From: Brachyspira murdochii DSM 12563
GTDB taxonomy: Bacteria > Spirochaetota > Brachyspiria > Brachyspirales > Brachyspiraceae
Length of the DNA: 64,000 bases
Direction: 5' to 3'
Assembly (NCBI RefSeq): GCF_000092845.1
Contig: NC_014150.1
Span: 2,789,510-2,853,509 of the forward strand
Part shown: positions 43,938 to 52,971 of the stretch, piece after piece
Layout of the letters: the number at the start of each line of letters is the position of its first letter
How positions within the stretch are numbered: the first letter of the stretch is position 1
The notes under the pieces: generated by a model
Database searches by the model: none
Told to the model about the DNA's origin: nothing
What the model saw: the letters and a program-made list of their open reading frames with translations, nothing else
Made by a program: the position numbers and the translations under genes

Positions 43938-44597
43938 TTAAATATTATTATTTTTTCTAATTTTTATTTTTGGTAAATAGTAGCTTATAAATATAAATAA
44001 ACCCATTATAGATAAATAATCCATAAAGAAAAGTATTACAGGCTCTTCATAATTAAAAAAAGCAAACTCTACAAGCAAAAACATTTTATTGTATAATTCT
44101 CTTTTTATAAATGAAATAATACCATATACAGCAATTAATGAAGCTATTATTAACGCTATTTGTTTTTTTATATTGATAAACTTTTTACTCATATTGATAA
44201 ACATACCCCAATGCATTCCTAAATGTGCCGACATAAATATAAATCCCCAAGAGCTTGAAATCATATGAAGACGTCTTGTAAACATTCCGCTGTTATGAAT
44301 ATTCAAAAATCCAAGCACCCTTTGAGAAAATAGTATTCCGCTTATCATTAATCCTATCATACATAAAAAAAGCATAGTATTAATAAATGTACTTAAAACC
44401 CTATTAAAATTATATTTTCCTTTAGGCAAGTTTTTGTACCAATTAAAATTAAGTATATGATGAAGTATAAAAAATATAAAAAGAAGAAAACCCAAATATT
44501 CATGTACGGCATCTCCAGTAAAATGATATGCCATCAAAATAAAAAATAGTAAAGTCATTATTATGTCTACAGTTGTTTTTATTATTTTTTTAGTCAT
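43938..44597 (-). CDS. DUF4405 membrane protein, b-type-cytochrome-like
   Basis: This 219-residue protein has about five membrane helices (about 9-27, 35-50, 70-92, 112-132, 143-165, and a further one near 190-208). Histidines fall at helix positions that could ligate haem: H25, H32, H46, H47, H111, H125 and H129 (YHFTGDAVHEYLGF, HHILNF, RLHMIS, SAHLGMHWGMF). This matches the DUF4405 / cytochrome b561-like architecture, which passes electrons across the membrane. It lies 39 bases after a flavodoxin lipoprotein gene on the same strand, so electron transfer to exported flavodoxins is a reasonable hypothesis. Haem binding is inferred only. Confidence 0.72.
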   Translation of the reverse strand: MTKKIIKTTVDIIMTLLFFILMAYHFTGDAVHEYLGFLLFIFFILHHILNFNWYKNLPKGKYNFNRVLSTFINTMLFLCMIGLMISGILFSQRVLGFLNIHNSGMFTRRLHMISSSWGFIFMSAHLGMHWGMFINMSKKFINIKKQIALIIASLIAVYGIISFIKRELYNKMFLLVEFAFFNYEEPVILFFMDYLSIMGLFIFISYYLPKIKIRKNNNI

Positions 44598-44636
44598 TAT
44601 GTATTTTACTCCTTTTTATATTATTATATTAATTCT

Positions 44637-45323
44637 TTAATAATCCAACTTTCTAAGCCAATCTAAAACTTTATTTTTTGATGTTTTTACTTCTGGTCTG
44701 TATATTCCTATAGGCTCTAATATTTTGCAGTCATCTGGAAGTAAGTTTCTCAAATCTCTTATAGTTCTTGAAAGCCCTCCTGTTCCATGAGTACAAAATG
44801 GTATTATGGTTTTTCCAGATAGATCATAGCTTTCAACAAATGTGAAAATAGCCATAGGGCAAGTATACCACCAATTAGGAAAACCCAAAAATATAACATC
44901 ATAATCATCTATATTATTAACTCTTTGAGTAAGTCTTGGTCTTTCGTTATTATCCCTTTCTTTTCTAGCTTGATTAAGACATTCATCATAATCGCTTGAG
45001 TATTTATTTTCTGTTTTTATACTAAATAAATCGCCTCCTGTTTCCTCTTGTATCCATCCTGCAATTAATGCAGCATTGCCCGGAGAAAGTACGCTTGCAG
45101 ATGTTTCAGCATCTGGGTCTATAGATGAAGGATTTTCAACTACAGTATTATCTGCCCAAGTAAAATATGCTATTAATATTTTTGAATTGCTTTGAGTATA
45201 ATTAATATTAACATAATTATTTTGAGTATTATAATTATTATCACTTTCTATATTAGAAGTATTGTTATTTTTGCATGATATAACTATTGATAAAAGTAAA
45301 AAAATTAAGATTAAATTTTTCAT
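44637..45323 (-). CDS. Flavodoxin-family lipoprotein
   Basis: This 228-residue protein starts with a lipoprotein signal ending IVISC (Cys17), then an Asn-rich linker and a flavodoxin domain from about residue 48: ILIAYFTWADNTV at the FMN loop, VIFLGFPNWWYTCPMAIFTF with aromatic flavin contacts, and IPFCTHGTGGLSRTIRDLRN. It would be anchored in the envelope. It lies between the SDR gene (88 bases upstream) and the DUF4405 gene downstream. AGGAGG precedes the ATG. The electron donor and substrate are unknown. Similar exported flavodoxins occur in clusters of gut bacteria. Confidence 0.85.
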   Translation of the reverse strand: MKNLILIFLLLSIVISCKNNNTSNIESDNNYNTQNNYVNINYTQSNSKILIAYFTWADNTVVENPSSIDPDAETSASVLSPGNAALIAGWIQEETGGDLFSIKTENKYSSDYDECLNQARKERDNNERPRLTQRVNNIDDYDVIFLGFPNWWYTCPMAIFTFVESYDLSGKTIIPFCTHGTGGLSRTIRDLRNLLPDDCKILEPIGIYRPEVKTSKNKVLDWLRKLDY

Positions 45324-45411
45324 ATAACCTCCTATTATTTTTTAATAGTACGCCTATTATTTATTTTTTTATGACATGTGGAAGCAAAAAATTATTAACA
45401 AGCTTAAAATA

Positions 45412-46245
45412 TTATTTATTATTTGATAATTCTCCATACCACCAAGAAGCTGTTACGCCTCCGTCCATAAGAAAATCACTTCCGGAAATAAAAGAGCCTC
45501 TATCACTCATTAAAAGCTCAGCCACATTTGCTACATCATCTGGAGTTCCTGCTCTTTTTGAAGGGCAAAGTTCAAGCATTTTTCTGTAGCTTTCTCCTCT
45601 TGGTCCGTTTAATTCATCATTGGCTAAAGGTGTAATTATTATACCGGGACTTATTGAATTTAACCTTGCTCCTCTTTTACCCCAATTTCCAGATTCATAC
45701 ATTACCCTTAAACAATTGCATCTTTTTGATAATTGATATGCCTTTAAAGTGTCTGTTGCTTTATCAAGTATAGGCAAAGATAATAATTTTTCAGTAGGAG
45801 TAGTTGCAAGTATTTTATTTTCTTCATCTGTCAAAGAACCTAAACGGTAGCCAGATTGTGAAGATATTGTTATACCGCTTCCTCCTTCTTCTATCACTTT
45901 ACCAAACTCTTCAAGAAGTACAGATGTTCCATATAAATCAACTTTTAAAATATCTTTAATAGATGCTTGAGACGGCGAAACTCCTGCAGCATTAACAAAA
46001 TATTTTATTTTTCCAAAACTTTTTGCAAAATCAATAAGTTTTAATATAGATTCTCTTGAAGAAATATCTGTTTCATATACAGAAGTTTGAAACCCAGCAT
46101 TATATAATATTTGAGATTCTCTTTCAGCATTTTTTATGTTTAAATCTGCAAGTACTATATGTTTTCCTATTCCCATTCTTCTGGCTATTGCAATTCCTAT
46201 AGAACCAGAGCCTGTTAAAACAAATACATCTTTTTTATTGTTCAT
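45412..46245 (-). CDS. Short-chain dehydrogenase/reductase
   Basis: This 277-residue NAD(P)-dependent oxidoreductase has the Rossmann motif TGSGSIGIAIARRMG (TGxxxIG type) near 12, an aspartate in VLADLN favouring NAD(H), NAAG near 88, ITISSQSGYR with the catalytic serine, and YQLSKRCN as the YxxxK pair. The C-terminal GSDFLMDGG is typical. SDRs act on alcohols, ketones or sugars; the substrate is unknown. A GGAGAA ribosome-binding site precedes the ATG. It lies 11 bases after a flavodoxin gene, so it belongs to the redox operon, and it is cytoplasmic. Confidence 0.9.
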   Translation of the reverse strand: MNNKKDVFVLTGSGSIGIAIARRMGIGKHIVLADLNIKNAERESQILYNAGFQTSVYETDISSRESILKLIDFAKSFGKIKYFVNAAGVSPSQASIKDILKVDLYGTSVLLEEFGKVIEEGGSGITISSQSGYRLGSLTDEENKILATTPTEKLLSLPILDKATDTLKAYQLSKRCNCLRVMYESGNWGKRGARLNSISPGIIITPLANDELNGPRGESYRKMLELCPSKRAGTPDDVANVAELLMSDRGSFISGSDFLMDGGVTASWWYGELSNNK

Positions 46246-46256
46246 TTTTATTCTCC

Positions 46257-46874
46257 TTAATAATTATTTATTTTTAAATTTCTTATCCAAGACTTTATTC
46301 TGCCGTCCTCGTATTGTATATTAGAGGAGTCTAATGCCAAGCCATTTAATATATTGGCATTTTTTATCATGTTTCTAATAGTATTATATGATCTTCCAGC
46401 ACCGTATCCGTCATGAGTACAAAATGGTACTATAGTTTTTGATGACAAATTATAATCTCTTATAAATGAACGCACTGCCATTGGTACATCATTAGCCCAT
46501 ACTGGATATCCTATAAAAACAGTATTATATTTGTTTATATCAATATTTAGCGGCTTTATTTTTGGAAAATAATTATTACGCATTTCTTCATGATTTTTAT
46601 CAACTAAATCGTCGAAGTTATCAGTGTATTTATCAACTGTTTCTATTAATCTAATATCAGCATTTAATTCGTTTTTTATTATATTAGCAGCATATTCTGT
46701 AGTACCCACTCTGTTATTATTTGCTATAATGCTTGCTGAAGTTGATGCGTCTATATTATCTTTAAATAAAGTATTTCCTACTCTTGAAAAATAAACAATC
46801 AAAATTTTTGAATTCTGTGCATATCCTATGTATGTAAACACTATAGAAAATATTATAATAATATATTTTTTCAT
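46257..46874 (-). CDS. Exported flavodoxin-like protein
   Basis: The ATG at 46874 is chosen because GGAG lies 5 bases upstream; an in-frame GTG 6 bases earlier overlaps that site. The 205-residue product has a signal peptide (about 1-18, IIIIFSIVFTYIGYAQ) and a flavodoxin domain: ILIVYFSRVGNT at the FMN loop, TVFIGYPVWANDVPMAVRSF and IVPFCTHDGYGAGRSYNTIR. It should act in the periplasm. It is translationally close to the downstream SDR (11 bases). A gap of about 300 bases with gene scraps separates it from the next flavodoxin gene. Confidence 0.85.
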   Translation of the reverse strand: MKKYIIIIFSIVFTYIGYAQNSKILIVYFSRVGNTLFKDNIDASTSASIIANNNRVGTTEYAANIIKNELNADIRLIETVDKYTDNFDDLVDKNHEEMRNNYFPKIKPLNIDINKYNTVFIGYPVWANDVPMAVRSFIRDYNLSSKTIVPFCTHDGYGAGRSYNTIRNMIKNANILNGLALDSSNIQYEDGRIKSWIRNLKINNY

Positions 46875-46896
46875 GTACACTCCTTTTATGATAAAA

Positions 46897-46955
46897 TTAA
46901 TTTCTATATTTTATAAATGTATTGTCAGCTTTCGCAGAGCGAAGGCGGGAAAAAA
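46897..46955 (-). pseudogene. Short GC-rich gene scrap
   Basis: A minus-strand frame reads RLRSAKADNTFIKYRN and stops at 46897. The part around 46930-46945 is GC-rich (GCTTTCGCAGAGCGAAGGCG), which itself can form a small hairpin. The KADNTFIK portion recurs at 38479-38502 with one silent-type change. This is a remnant or dispersed repeat, not a working gene. Confidence 0.3.
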
Positions 46956-46985
46956 ATAACAAAAAATTTACAAACTTAAAAATTG

Positions 46986-47096
46986 TCAGTATAAACTAAA
47001 AGTTATATTTGCTCTTCTTTCTCCGTTGTTATATAAATCATGAAAAATACTTAAATCTGATGTAACTTTTACCTCCTATAGTAAGATTGGGATTAG
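46986..47096 (-). pseudogene. C-terminal remnant of a probable beta-strand-rich exported protein
   Basis: Two overlapping minus-strand frames read TNPNLTIGGK and then VKVTSDLSIFHDLYNNGERR followed by ANITFSLY and TGA at 46986. Alternating residues and the final aromatic-rich strand resemble the end of a beta-barrel or surface protein. No start is present and the frame changes within GGT-AAA. It is a decayed tail. Confidence 0.3.
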
Positions 47097-47176
47097 TTTA
47101 TTGTTTTATTATTTTGTATTTGCTTTCAGTTAAAAAATATTTATTAATTTATATACTGAAAGCAAGTTTATAATTT

Positions 47177-47734
47177 TTATAGTATGTTTATATTTTGAAG
47201 CCATGTTCTTATATTATTTTCTGAGCTATTAACACTTCTTCCAGATATACTTAGATGGTTTAATATATCAGAGTTAGGGCATAAAGTTTTTATATCATTT
47301 AAACTTCTTCCCATACCGCCTCCGCCATGTGTGCATAAAGGAGCTATTTTTTTACCGCTGAAATTATGAGTTTGTAATAATTGTTTTACTGCCTGAGGAA
47401 TAGTGCCCCACCAATTAGGGTAACATAATATTATAGTGTCATAGTTAGCTAGATTATCTATATTAGCACTTAATCTCGGTAAAACATTATTATTTAATTC
47501 ATCTCTTGCCTGATTTATAGTATCATTATAATCAGTAGGGTAGCTTTCTGCAGTTTTTACTTCAAACATATCAGCATGCGTCATGTTCTTTATCATATTG
47601 GCAGCTGTTTTCGTGTTTCCGCCCCAAGAGAAATACACTATTAAAGTTTTTGAGCTTTGAGCGTATAAGCCTCCTATTAATAATGTGCTTGAAAGAAGTA
47701 ATGATACTAATATTGTTTTGATAATTTTTCTCAT
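47177..47734 (-). CDS. Exported flavodoxin-like protein
   Basis: This 185-residue protein has a signal peptide (about 1-25, ILVSLLLSSTLLIGGLYAQS) and a complete flavodoxin domain: TLIVYFSWGGNTKTAANMIK for FMN phosphate binding, TIILCYPNWWGTIPQAVKQL and APLCTHGGGGMGRSLNDIK. It is a close relative of the two other exported flavodoxins of the island, pointing to tandem duplication. AAAGGAGAG precedes the ATG. It lies 119 bases after the CMD lipoprotein gene. A periplasmic electron-transfer or quinone-reductase role is inferred. Confidence 0.87.
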   Translation of the reverse strand: MRKIIKTILVSLLLSSTLLIGGLYAQSSKTLIVYFSWGGNTKTAANMIKNMTHADMFEVKTAESYPTDYNDTINQARDELNNNVLPRLSANIDNLANYDTIILCYPNWWGTIPQAVKQLLQTHNFSGKKIAPLCTHGGGGMGRSLNDIKTLCPNSDILNHLSISGRSVNSSENNIRTWLQNINIL

Positions 47735-47853
47735 ATTTAAACTCTCCTTTTATAAAATTTTTTTATTAACTTTTATAAAAAATGTATAGCTATTTTGCAT
47801 TTTTTATTTATGTTATTATCAATAGATATAATAAGTATTATTCTTGTTTATTA

Positions 47854-48699
47854 TTATTGTATATTGTTAATTACAGTTATAGCGTTTAATGTTCTTGGGT
47901 ATCCTATATAAGGAAGGCATTGAGTTACAGCTTCTATCATCATATCTTTTGTGTTTCCCATTGCTATATTAGCATTTGCATGTGCTGTAGCCTGAGGTTC
48001 AGCTCCTCCTAAAGATATTATCATTATGAATGTTAAAAGCTCTCTTGTTTTTAAATCCAAACCTGTTCTAGTATAGAAATCTCCGAAACAGTTAGCTGAT
48101 AAATAGTTCTGAATATGTTTTTGATTTGGGGCAGCATTTGAATGAGCAGTAAGTATTGCATTTCCAAATATGCTTACCTGAGTTTCTAATCCCTTATCAA
48201 ATCTTGTTTCCTCTGTAACAGTTGATTGACTTTCTATAGGAAGTGATATATTTTTTGCTTTAAAAACTTCATTTGCTTTTTCTAAAGCTGCAAATACTCT
48301 TGGAAAACCTACATAAGGAGAACATTGATATAATGCCTCTTTTATCTCTATAGGTGTAACTCCAACATTCAAAGCTATTTCTACATGATCTTTTATAAAG
48401 TCAGTGCCTTGTGAAGCTGTTAGAGAAACTAATGTTACAAGTTCTCTTAATTTTGCATCTAATGAACCATGATTATAAACTTCGCCGTATAAAAAGTTAT
48501 TGAATATACTTTCTAATTCTTCATCATTTGGTTTTGATGATTTAGCCTCTCTTTTGAATAATTCATTATATTTACTATTTGCTTTTTCTGTCATAGTTAG
48601 ATTTCCTCCGCTATTATTAGTATTATTGTTATTTGCCTGACAAGATAATATTGTCATTAATAAAAATATTGATAAACTTAATTTTAATATTTTTTTCAT
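47854..48699 (-). CDS. Lipoprotein with two carboxymuconolactone-decarboxylase-like domains
   Basis: This 281-residue lipoprotein has lipobox TILSC (Cys20). Two CMD-fold repeats follow: about 60-140 (LRELVTLVSLTASQGTDFIK, HVEIALNVGVTPIEIKEALY) and about 180-275 (RTGLDLKTRELLTFIMIISL, MIEAVTQCLPYIGYPRTLNA). Neither repeat has the Cys-x-x-Cys of AhpD peroxidases, so thiol peroxidase activity is not expected; it resembles the gamma-CMD group. It lies 19 bases after the aldo/keto reductase gene, clearly one operon, downstream of the MerR-type promoter at 49604. Its substrate is unknown. Confidence 0.88.
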   Translation of the reverse strand: MKKILKLSLSIFLLMTILSCQANNNNTNNSGGNLTMTEKANSKYNELFKREAKSSKPNDEELESIFNNFLYGEVYNHGSLDAKLRELVTLVSLTASQGTDFIKDHVEIALNVGVTPIEIKEALYQCSPYVGFPRVFAALEKANEVFKAKNISLPIESQSTVTEETRFDKGLETQVSIFGNAILTAHSNAAPNQKHIQNYLSANCFGDFYTRTGLDLKTRELLTFIMIISLGGAEPQATAHANANIAMGNTKDMMIEAVTQCLPYIGYPRTLNAITVINNIQ

Positions 48700-48718
48700 T
48701 TAATAATCTCCTTATATT

Positions 48719-49564
48719 TTAATATTTCATATTTAATAATTTTTTTATAAACTTTTCATCTTCATTAAGAAATATAATATTTTTATTATTGTCTAAAGTT
48801 TTTATAATATTCATATCATTATCATCTAATATAAAATCAAATATTTTAGAGTTTTCTATTATCCTCTCTTTATTAACACTTTTGGGTATAATAGGTATAT
48901 TTCTTTGAGTTAGCCATCTTAAAATAACTTGAGCTATAGTTTTATTATATTTTTTTCCTATACTTTTTAATATTTCATTATTGAAAATATTATTACTGCC
49001 TTCTGCTAAAGGAGCCCAAGATTCTAATGTGATATTATACTCTTTCATTAATTCTTGGTCTTCCCATCTTTGAAAGAATGGATGAGTTTCTATTTGATTA
49101 ATAGCCGGTATTATTTTATGATTATGTACAAAATCAATTAATCTATCTTTATAGAAGTTGCAAACTCCTATAGCTTTTATATGTCCAGCTTCGTATAATT
49201 CTTCAATTGCTTTCCAAGCAGAATAATAATTACCAAAAGGCATATGGATCAAATATAAATCTAAATAATCTAATCCCAATTTTTCCATAGATATTTGAAA
49301 TGCTTTTTTTGCCTTATCATAATCTGCATCTTGTATCCATAATTTTGTGGTTATAAACATCTCTTTTCTATTTATACCGCTTTCTTTTATAGCATCTCCT
49401 ACCGCTTTTTCATTCATATATATAGATGCTGTGTCTATATGTCTGTAGCCTGCTTCAATAGCATAAATACATGCTTTTTTGCATTCTTCGTAATTATCTA
49501 TTTGGTATACTCCAAATCCAAGAATAGGCATTTCAACACCATTATTTAGTTTTATATTATTCAT
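48719..49564 (-). CDS. Aldo/keto reductase
   Basis: This 281-residue NADPH-dependent reductase of the AKR superfamily has the catalytic tetrad as D and Y in HIDTASIYMNEKAVG, K in TTKLW and H in LIHMPFG. The cofactor site includes IPKSVNKERIIENSKIFDF. It reduces aldehydes or ketones in the cytoplasm. It is the first gene after a MerR-type promoter and is followed by the CMD lipoprotein, a pairing that suggests an inducible electrophile-detoxification operon. GGAGAG lies 4 bases before the ATG. A paralogue sits at 60420-61241 without this promoter. Confidence 0.93.
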   Translation of the reverse strand: MNNIKLNNGVEMPILGFGVYQIDNYEECKKACIYAIEAGYRHIDTASIYMNEKAVGDAIKESGINRKEMFITTKLWIQDADYDKAKKAFQISMEKLGLDYLDLYLIHMPFGNYYSAWKAIEELYEAGHIKAIGVCNFYKDRLIDFVHNHKIIPAINQIETHPFFQRWEDQELMKEYNITLESWAPLAEGSNNIFNNEILKSIGKKYNKTIAQVILRWLTQRNIPIIPKSVNKERIIENSKIFDFILDDNDMNIIKTLDNNKNIIFLNEDEKFIKKLLNMKY

Positions 49565-49603
49565 AATCTCTCCATTTTTTTATTATACCTATTTTATTTT
49601 TTT

Positions 49604-49634
49604 ATTTTAGCATTAGAGTTTACTCCAATGTCAA
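49604..49634 (-). promoter_or_regulatory. MerR-type promoter/operator of the aldo/keto reductase operon
   Basis: On the minus strand TTGACA (49634-49629) and TAAAAT (49609-49604) are 19 bases apart instead of 17. The spacer, together with the end of the -35, forms the inverted repeat CATTGGAGT-AA-ACTCTAATG. Over-long spacers with such a dyad are the mark of MerR-family activators. The same arrangement is found at 50708-50738. Confidence 0.8.
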
Positions 49635-49680
49635 TAGCAAAATTGTAATTTTTTTATTTAATTTTATAAATTAGCAATTT

Positions 49681-50109
49681 TTAATTTGCTTTCTCTATAC
49701 GAATTTCAAAATATCCTTTTATATTTGAAAGTTTTGATATATCAGAAATATTTTCAAATCTTCCCAAATAAATTAAATTATTCGAATATCTGAAATTTTT
49801 ATAAAATATAGCCAAATTACCCCAAGGAGCATAATAAGTTATATCACCTGCTTTTGGAGTTATGCCGTCTGGTTCATTTTGAGTATTTAATTTTTTACTC
49901 AAATATGATATTTTCTCTGTACCATTAAAATCTTCAATCTTCAAATTCATAGGCAGAAGCGATAAAAAATCATTTCCAGCATTTGAATTTGTTATTAAAG
50001 CATAAACTTCATTATCATTAAATATTAATTTTACTTTTGTACTTTGTGTAAAAGCATTCATTGTAAATATACTCGATATAAGTAATATAAAAGCAATAGT
50101 ATTTTTCAT
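49681..50109 (-). CDS. Exported cyclophilin-like fold protein
   Basis: This 142-residue protein has a signal peptide (about 1-21, FILLISSIFTMNAFTQ). The mature domain fits the small cyclophilin-like family: VKLIFNDNEVYALITNSNAG, DFLSLLPMNLKIEDFNGTEK, AGDITYYAPWGNLAIFYKNF and LIYLGRFENI. This family has the cyclophilin barrel but usually no proven prolyl isomerase activity, and it often accompanies flavodoxin, CMD and cupin genes, as here. It lies 42 bases after the cupin gene, so it should share the MerR-type promoter at 50708. Its biochemical role is unknown. Confidence 0.82.
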   Translation of the reverse strand: MKNTIAFILLISSIFTMNAFTQSTKVKLIFNDNEVYALITNSNAGNDFLSLLPMNLKIEDFNGTEKISYLSKKLNTQNEPDGITPKAGDITYYAPWGNLAIFYKNFRYSNNLIYLGRFENISDISKLSNIKGYFEIRIEKAN

Positions 50110-50151
50110 AAATAAATCTCTAGTAAAAGTATTTAATCATTTATTTTTATA

Positions 50152-50676
50152 TTATTGATTAGTATAGCTGTAATATTCTTCATCAGTAACATGTTCCATC
50201 CAAGTAACATTGTTTCCGTTTGAATCACCTGTTATAGCAACATGTTTCATATAAGAATTTGGAGAAGCTCCATGCCAATGTTTAACATTTGAAGGGCAGT
50301 ATAAAATATCTCCTGCTCTAAACTCCTGAATGGGTTTTCCTTCTTCTTGAGTAAGTCCTACACCTTCAACAACTATTAAATGCTGTCCTGCTGGGTGTGT
50401 ATGCCATGCACTTCTTGCTCCCGGCTGAAATGTAACATAGGCTACTGAGAATTTAGATGTTTCATTAGGTGCTGTTATACTTTCAACTTCAACATCGCCT
50501 GTAAAATAGTCTGCTGAACCTTTAGATTTTTGACCATCGCCTTTTTTTATCAATACTGTTTCTTCTGGCGATTTTGCATATTCATAACCATTTGAAGCCT
50601 CTTTACTTCCTGCATTACATGATACAGCAGTAAATATTATTGATAAAGTAAAAGTAATTAGTAAATATTTTTTCAT
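50152..50676 (-). CDS. Cupin-domain lipoprotein
   Basis: The ATG at 50676 is chosen because AAGGAGAG precedes it and it starts a clean lipoprotein signal (MKKYLLITF...TAVSC, Cys20); the longer frame to 50727 would run through the promoter. The 174-residue protein has a single cupin barrel with metal ligands in WHTHPAGQHLIVVEG (His, His, Gln/His) and VKHWHG. Such small cupins resemble manganese-dependent hydroxynitrile-lyase-like proteins often found with CMD proteins. It is the first gene after the MerR-type promoter. The substrate is unknown. Confidence 0.88.
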   Translation of the reverse strand: MKKYLLITFTLSIIFTAVSCNAGSKEASNGYEYAKSPEETVLIKKGDGQKSKGSADYFTGDVEVESITAPNETSKFSVAYVTFQPGARSAWHTHPAGQHLIVVEGVGLTQEEGKPIQEFRAGDILYCPSNVKHWHGASPNSYMKHVAITGDSNGNNVTWMEHVTDEEYYSYTNQ

Positions 50677-50707
50677 TTTCTCTCCTTTTTGTAAAAAATC
50701 TTTTATG

Positions 50708-50738
50708 ATTATAGCATTAGAGTTCACTCCAATGTCAA
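50708..50738 (-). promoter_or_regulatory. MerR-type promoter/operator of the cupin operon
   Basis: On the minus strand TTGACA (50738-50733) and a perfect TATAAT (50713-50708) are separated by 19 bases. The spacer region holds CATTGGAGT-GA-ACTCTAATG, a 9-2-9 dyad with one mismatched pair. The start codon is 32 bases downstream of the -10. It differs from the element at 49604 by one base in the dyad centre and one in the -10. Confidence 0.85.
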
Positions 50739-52404: not shown

Positions 52405-52971
52405 TTATCTTTTGACAATTCCGTAGAATATGATATTTATAATGATATCCAAATCCTTTTCATAGTCTTCTGAACTTTTATTTTTTACCCATTCAATTTC
52501 AAAGCCTTTTATAATAGCCAAAACAGCCTCAGTAGCAAGTCTTAAATCTATATTAAATAACCCTTTTTTTACTCCGCTTCTTAATATCATTTTTATAGTG
52601 TTGTACTCTTCTTTATGATATTGTGCTCTCATATGTTCTATAAGAGTAAAGTCTTCAAATATTTCACTATGCAATGCTTCATAAAGATTTGCTAATTTTA
52701 TATAACCTTTCTGTCTTGTGAGAATATATGCTCTTAATTTTGCTTCTGCTGTATCCTCTTTTTTTATAGCCTCATACAATTCTTTTTTTAAGTCATTAGC
52801 TTCATTTTCAGCTATGGCAAAAAATATTTCCTCTTTACTTTTAAAATAATGATAAATACTGCTTTTAGATTTATGTACCATTAGAGCTATATCGCTCATA
52901 GAAGCTTTTTTAAATCCGTACTTTTTGAATAGTCTTTTTCCTGCATTTACTATTTGTTCACGAGGCGTCAT
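52405..52971 (-). CDS. TetR/AcrR-family transcriptional regulator
   Basis: This 188-residue regulator has an N-terminal helix-turn-helix (about 5-50): REQIVNAGKRLFKKYGFKKA, SMSDIALMVHKSKSSIYHYF and KSKEEIF. The C-terminal ligand-binding and dimer domain is helical, with LIEHMRAQYHKEEYNTIKMI, and its effector is unknown. AGAAGG precedes the ATG and a consensus promoter lies 40 bases upstream. comEC follows at 11 bases, so the two are cotranscribed; whether the regulator controls competence is untested. Confidence 0.92.
   Translation of the reverse strand: MTPREQIVNAGKRLFKKYGFKKASMSDIALMVHKSKSSIYHYFKSKEEIFFAIAENEANDLKKELYEAIKKEDTAEAKLRAYILTRQKGYIKLANLYEALHSEIFEDFTLIEHMRAQYHKEEYNTIKMILRSGVKKGLFNIDLRLATEAVLAIIKGFEIEWVKNKSSEDYEKDLDIIINIIFYGIVKR

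Follow-up and report, generated by a model that had tools for sequence, protein, structure and literature searches.

The two promoters described here lie in the window, the whole stretch of 64,000 nucleotides that was analysed, and very probably both are operator-promoters of a single NmlR/AdhR-like MerR regulon, run by a regulator, here called MerR1, that would distort their spacers on binding its inducer. This reading builds on promoter anatomy, co-occurrence of regulator and operator, autoregulatory placement, conservation and family affinity, all of which were observed here. Regulons of this kind are already known; two features of this one, both at the level of the genus, are unusual. Brachyspira are aerotolerant gut anaerobes, and for the regulation of their aldehyde/redox defence a candidate regulator, its sites and its putative targets are now named. 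Judged by the open papers searched, in which no description of a MerR regulon in this genus was found, an NmlR-like MerR regulon is new for Brachyspira; a search of the literature on this gene combination returned nothing.

Two promoters of common design in the window

Both promoters follow the design TTGACA-19 bp-TAWAAT and carry in the spacer the dyad CATTGGAGT-NN-ACTCTAATG, a 9-2-9 arrangement with one mismatched pair. The promoter of the cupin gene (50708..50738, minus strand) reads TTGACA-TTGGAGTGAACTCTAATGC-TATAAT from 50738 to 50708, with the -35 box TTGACA at 50733-50738 and the -10 box TATAAT at 50708-50713, 19 bp apart. The promoter of the aldo/keto reductase (AKR) gene (49604..49634, minus strand) reads TTGACA-TTGGAGTAAACTCTAATGC-TAAAAT from 49634 to 49604, with the -35 box TTGACA at 49629-49634, a 19-bp spacer and the -10 box TAAAAT at 49604-49609. 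The predicted operator dyads, CATTGGAGTGAACTCTAATG in the cupin promoter (50715..50734; 9-2-9, one mismatched pair) and CATTGGAGTAAACTCTAATG in the AKR promoter (49611..49630), neither of them assigned to a strand, are both centred 8 bp from the -35 box and 11 bp from the -10 box. A preliminary description of this DNA had reported the two promoters with their TTGACA boxes, 19-base spacing and common dyad, and its coordinates, spacing and dyad all proved exact; Pfam likewise confirms the genes that it had placed behind them, a cupin-cyclophilin pair and a pair of an aldo/keto reductase and a carboxymuconolactone decarboxylase-like protein (CMD).

The first gene behind the 50708-50738 promoter encodes a lipoprotein-like cupin (50152..50676, minus strand; Pfam cupin). 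Its likely true start is the ATG at 50676, 31 bp past the -10 box, the listed GTG start falling within the promoter, and its product scores 171.2 bits against the NCBIfam model of (R)-mandelonitrile lyase (cupin-type), above the cut-off of 140. The gene of a cyclophilin-like fold protein (PF18050 in Pfam; 49681..50109, minus strand) follows 42 bp downstream and is probably part of the same transcript. The 49604-49634 promoter has as its first gene, 39 bp past the -10 box, the aldo/keto reductase (PF00248 in Pfam, DkgA-like; 48719..49564, minus strand), followed 19 bp downstream by the CMD gene (47854..48699, minus strand), in which Pfam finds two CMD stretches; these two genes, too, probably share a transcript. 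A flavodoxin_4 gene (47177..47734, minus strand), located 119 bp downstream of the CMD gene, is a possible read-through member of the AKR-CMD unit, and the promoter-pattern search of the genome found no operator of its own. By eye, N-termini resembling lipoprotein signal sequences that end in Cys were recognized in the cupin (50152-50676), in the CMD protein (47854-48699) and in two Zn-ADHs encoded elsewhere in the genome (L020:6334-7563 and L035:226-1464); they are unexpected for NAD(P)H-dependent dehydrogenases.

Predicted targets and regulators in the genome and the genus

The window alone is indecisive, because the short dyad, with up to two mismatches allowed, occurs twice in these 64 kb against an expectation of 1.16 and is thus not rare. 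The full 31-bp promoter pattern TTGACATTNNAGTNNACTNNAATGNTANNNT, searched across the entire genome, a single contig of 3,241,804 bp, has six exact occurrences and one with a single mismatch in 3.24 Mb, while base composition predicts ~3e-5 exact matches and a reversed-pattern control over the whole genome, with up to two mismatches allowed, gave none. These genome-wide counts, together with the genus-wide ones given below, reject a chance origin of the promoter pair. A site at 2022122, with one mismatch in the dyad, was discarded, as no promoter boxes surround it.

Two of the seven strong promoters are those of the window operons. Of the remaining five, two precede MerR1 itself (545539-545569) and a second AKR gene, AKR_m, which lie in a cluster at 545-553 kb; two precede Zn-ADH genes, one encoding an enzyme without signal sequence (1290970) and the other a lipoprotein-like enzyme (1764594); and the last precedes a MATE exporter gene (440605). 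A genome-wide search for the dyad in 19-base promoters and for a merR-like gene nearby had been suggested in the preliminary description, and the genome indeed holds these seven promoters, one of them driving MerR1; the small regulon of at least four genes that it had proposed is supported as a regulon, and its extent is larger than the four genes. Two weaker sites with decayed -35 boxes lie before a further Zn-ADH (TTGCCT; L035, G000:C1:2335720), where sister species keep TTGACT as the -35 box, and before an MFS exporter (TTGCCC; L036, G000:C1:3224058). The Zn-ADHs behind the two strong sites have as their closest model the aldehyde reductase Ahr (below its cut-off) and not class III formaldehyde dehydrogenase. 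Genus-wide, the predicted targets comprise MerR1, AKRs, Zn-ADHs, cupin, cyclophilin-like protein, MATE, MFS, FMN reductase and hexapeptide acetyltransferases. The window cluster (43938-50676) and the MerR1 cluster (L019 8001-15606), 2.3 Mb apart, contain paralogous AKR, cupin, cyclophilin-like, flavodoxin and DUF4405 genes.

The genome holds three matches to the MerR_1 domain and the window none, as anticipated in the preliminary description, which had placed the regulator elsewhere in the genome. Its claim of a MerR-type regulator, which a genome devoid of MerR-family genes would contradict, survived, in that a MerR gene starts 28 bp downstream of the operator-promoter of the same design at 545539-545569. 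This gene, MerR1 (G000:C1:545598-545984, 129 aa), is the best-scoring MerR_1 match of the genome and is found 2.3 Mb from the window. Its closest relatives in the PDB are NmlR-like MerR proteins, namely Listeria 3gp4 and the NmlR of Haemophilus influenzae (5e01/5d8c); its best NCBIfam model is NmlR (NF041849), and since its score of 148.7 bits is under the cut-off of 175, we term it NmlR-like and do not file it as NmlR. Judged from its sequence, MerR1 is closest to the NmlR/AdhR subfamily of carbonyl/redox regulators, an assignment that goes beyond the preliminary description, in which no subfamily was named. The operator stands 24-67 bp upstream of the MerR1 gene in 17 of the 18 copies examined. 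The second match, MerR2 (G000:C1:554653-554985; L019:16654-17004), is a paralogue 59% identical to MerR1, with which it shares many residues of the DNA-binding part (invariant columns). The third (G000:C1:1357201; L018:1369-2052, 227 aa) was rejected as the regulator, being divergent and weak, with no operator nearby.

Across the genus, a MerR1/MerR2 gene and the operator-promoter co-occur in the same 24 of 26 Brachyspira genomes, and the other two (G017 and G019) have neither; such exact agreement would arise by chance once in 325 if the genomes were independent, a figure that is optimistic because they are related. In G019, which lacks the regulator, the Zn-ADH is kept at 79% identity; its gene has no operator and comes immediately after what looks like an acetyltransferase gene. 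Orthologous and paralogous copies of the 31-bp site share 87-98% identity, part of which comes from selection because the sites were collected by pattern, whereas the 40-bp upstream flanks mostly reach ~45-57%, apart from 77% in the AKR_w set, which is small and made up of close relatives. In true orthologues this contrast is free of pattern selection, as for the Zn-ADH site (identity 0.96 against 0.55 for its flank). Two MerR1 copies are damaged, either by real decay or by sequencing error: that of G001 (G001:C1:2282491; L051) has an in-frame stop in a genome that keeps six operators, and that of G011 (G011:C74:9846-10204; L060) is broken, with one operator left, its own.

Proposed mechanism and alternative explanations

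In the MerR family, a long spacer blocks promoter opening until the regulator distorts the DNA (PMC9909328). The preliminary description had recognized in the 19-base spacer with its central dyad the design of MerR activators, and this finds support in the match to that published design, in an operator that tracks the MerR gene across 26 genomes and in a site that is conserved while its flanks are not. For MerR1 we infer DNA binding, distortion, activation, transcription and the inducer as follows. A MerR1 dimer would sit on the dyad within the over-long 19-bp spacer and, as long as the inducer is missing, the -35 and -10 boxes would be out of phase for RNA polymerase, leaving the genes nearly silent. 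An inducer would then modify or bind MerR1; the most likely one is a reactive aldehyde, quinone or oxidant that acts through Cys52, and the reasons for proposing a reactive carbonyl, quinone or oxidant are the predicted target genes and the subfamily. The induced protein would kink and untwist the spacer, allowing the polymerase to open the promoter, and the output would consist of enzymes for carbonyl/redox detoxification (AKRs, Zn-dependent dehydrogenases, CMD, cupin and cyclophilin-like protein), the MATE exporter and more MerR1.

The position of MerR2 raises the question of which paralogue acts in the window. It seems unlikely that MerR2, which carries Ser52, regulates both window promoters, with control by MerR1 confined to the cluster around its own gene and to the dehydrogenases. 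In favour of this, 10 of the 16 MerR2 copies examined are followed, at a distance of 19-62 bp, by an operator that serves the gene behind it, and in three genomes (G004, G005 and G006) that operator is the orthologue of the window cupin promoter. In the present genome, however, the MerR2 gene is not adjacent to the window promoters; none of the 16 copies has an operator in its own promoter, and the dyad of the window sites is also that of the MerR1 and AKR_m sites. Moreover, G015 has no MerR2 match and retains both window-type promoters intact; therefore, MerR1 suffices in G015. Nevertheless, MerR2 could share or own some sites. An extension of the preferred reading, not exclusive of it, is that MerR1 and MerR2 bind all of the sites, the former as an inducible activator and the latter as a non-inducible competitor or a sensor of a second signal; we regard this as possible, given the DNA-binding residues common to the two proteins, the Ser52 found in 16 of 16 MerR2 copies and the presence of both genes in most genomes, even if a Ser52 protein could also sense something else or bind other sites.

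The paralogy of the window and 545-kb clusters would fit repeated promoters that are mere remnants of duplicated gene clusters, which is nonetheless highly improbable, as the flanks have diverged to ~45% identity with the site still at 87%, and the site also stands before unrelated genes (MATE, Zn-ADH). It is likewise highly improbable that these are ordinary sigma-70 promoters whose dyad belongs to a regulator of another family, such as LysR or the TetR encoded at 52405-52971. The TetR gene is 1.7 kb upstream on the same strand, but a spacer of 19 bp with the dyad at its centre is the design of MerR promoters (PMC9909328), and operator and MerR gene go together throughout the genus and lie side by side in Firmicutes; regulation by the neighbouring TetR gene was rejected, no link to it being found.

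Operator register, Cys52 and known systems

The position of the operator within the spacer sets Brachyspira apart. In a comparison set of 80 loci with related MerR genes, mostly from Firmicutes, promoters of this design (dyad TTGGAGT-N2-ACTCCAA) were found in 44 loci, two of which are Brachyspira loci with the genus form, L149 being a third; the spacer is of 19 bp in 57 of 60 pattern matches in the related loci, and the reversed control gave one match. When the -35 box was allowed to stand at offsets between 4 and 13 bp, its distance to the dyad centre was 7 bp in each of the 48 sites outside Brachyspira and 8 bp in each of the 104 Brachyspira sites, with a 19-bp spacer throughout; the count of 104 is inflated, since a register-8 pattern had been used to retrieve the Brachyspira loci, and a few loci overlap. 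A separate search of 26 Brachyspira genomes for register-7 operators found none that was convincing, with one weak match in G004; register 7 is present in two other spirochaetes (G199 and G060). In a survey of heavy-metal MerR subfamilies the distance from dyad to -35 box is fixed within a subfamily (PMC5045206), which makes a shift of 1 bp notable. The MerR1 and MerR2 proteins of Brachyspira group together as a single clade (99/84), and one slide in the ancestor of the genus is therefore the simplest reading.

The Cys of the NmlR clade has been called absolutely conserved, and AdhR with C52A is unable to induce (reviewed in PMC4776306). Cys52 is present in 76 of 76 non-Brachyspira relatives and in MerR1 of this genome and of most Brachyspira species, whereas MerR1 has Tyr52 in one clade (G007, G009, G014, G022 and G025; L053-L057), in which its copies show strong purifying selection (dN/dS around 0.02, with values of about 0.00-0.05) and the operators are intact. 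The thiol step is thus perhaps not general, as Cys52 is not found in every Brachyspira MerR1. We tentatively propose that in the ancestor of Brachyspira an NmlR-type operator slid by one base in the fixed 19-bp spacer at every target, that the regulator may also be inducible without Cys52, as in the Tyr52 clade, and that MerR1 and the Ser52 MerR2 may represent a pair with changed protein-DNA-polymerase geometry and different sensing chemistry. The genus-wide slide is a natural experiment in how strictly the -35 and -10 boxes constrain the placement of a MerR protein, and the clade lacking Cys52 a direct test of whether this residue is the sensor in the NmlR/AdhR subfamily.

Among characterized systems, the NmlR of H. 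influenzae and Neisseria, which responds to formaldehyde, resembles MerR1 in its MerR subfamily, in providing the best NCBIfam model, in the Cys at the equivalent position in the MerR1 of this genome and in the Zn-ADH of its regulon; it differs in that MerR1 scores under the NmlR equivalog cut-off, in controlling one adhC-estD operon beside the regulator where Brachyspira has several scattered operons, and in the operator register, shifted in Brachyspira by 1 bp with respect to the sampled NmlR-type relatives. NmlR/AdhR regulons include Zn-ADH and, in Bacillus subtilis, a CMD gene; there a Zn-ADH gene and a CMD-family gene are under the control of AdhR (YraB), which responds to carbonyl electrophiles and needs Cys52 (PMC4776306). 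Zn-ADH and CMD-family genes are also among the predicted Brachyspira targets; unlike B. subtilis, Brachyspira adds AKRs, cupin, cyclophilin-like protein and MATE, lacks Cys52 in part of the genus and possesses a Ser52 paralogue. The NmlR-like MerR loci of Clostridia, Paenibacillus and Elusimicrobia (L098-L175) have in common with Brachyspira the half-site of TTGGAGT-N2-ACTCCAA and the 19-bp spacer, and their nearby genes include AKR (30 of 78), flavodoxin (15) and cupin (13); in contrast to Brachyspira, their dyad centre is 7 and not 8 bp from the -35 box and all of them have Cys52. Finally, SoxR, CueR and BmrR share the 19-20 bp spacer, the central dyad and activation by DNA distortion (PMC9909328), the latter being predicted for Brachyspira, and they differ in having other ligand-binding parts and in being less similar to MerR1 than the NmlR-like proteins are.
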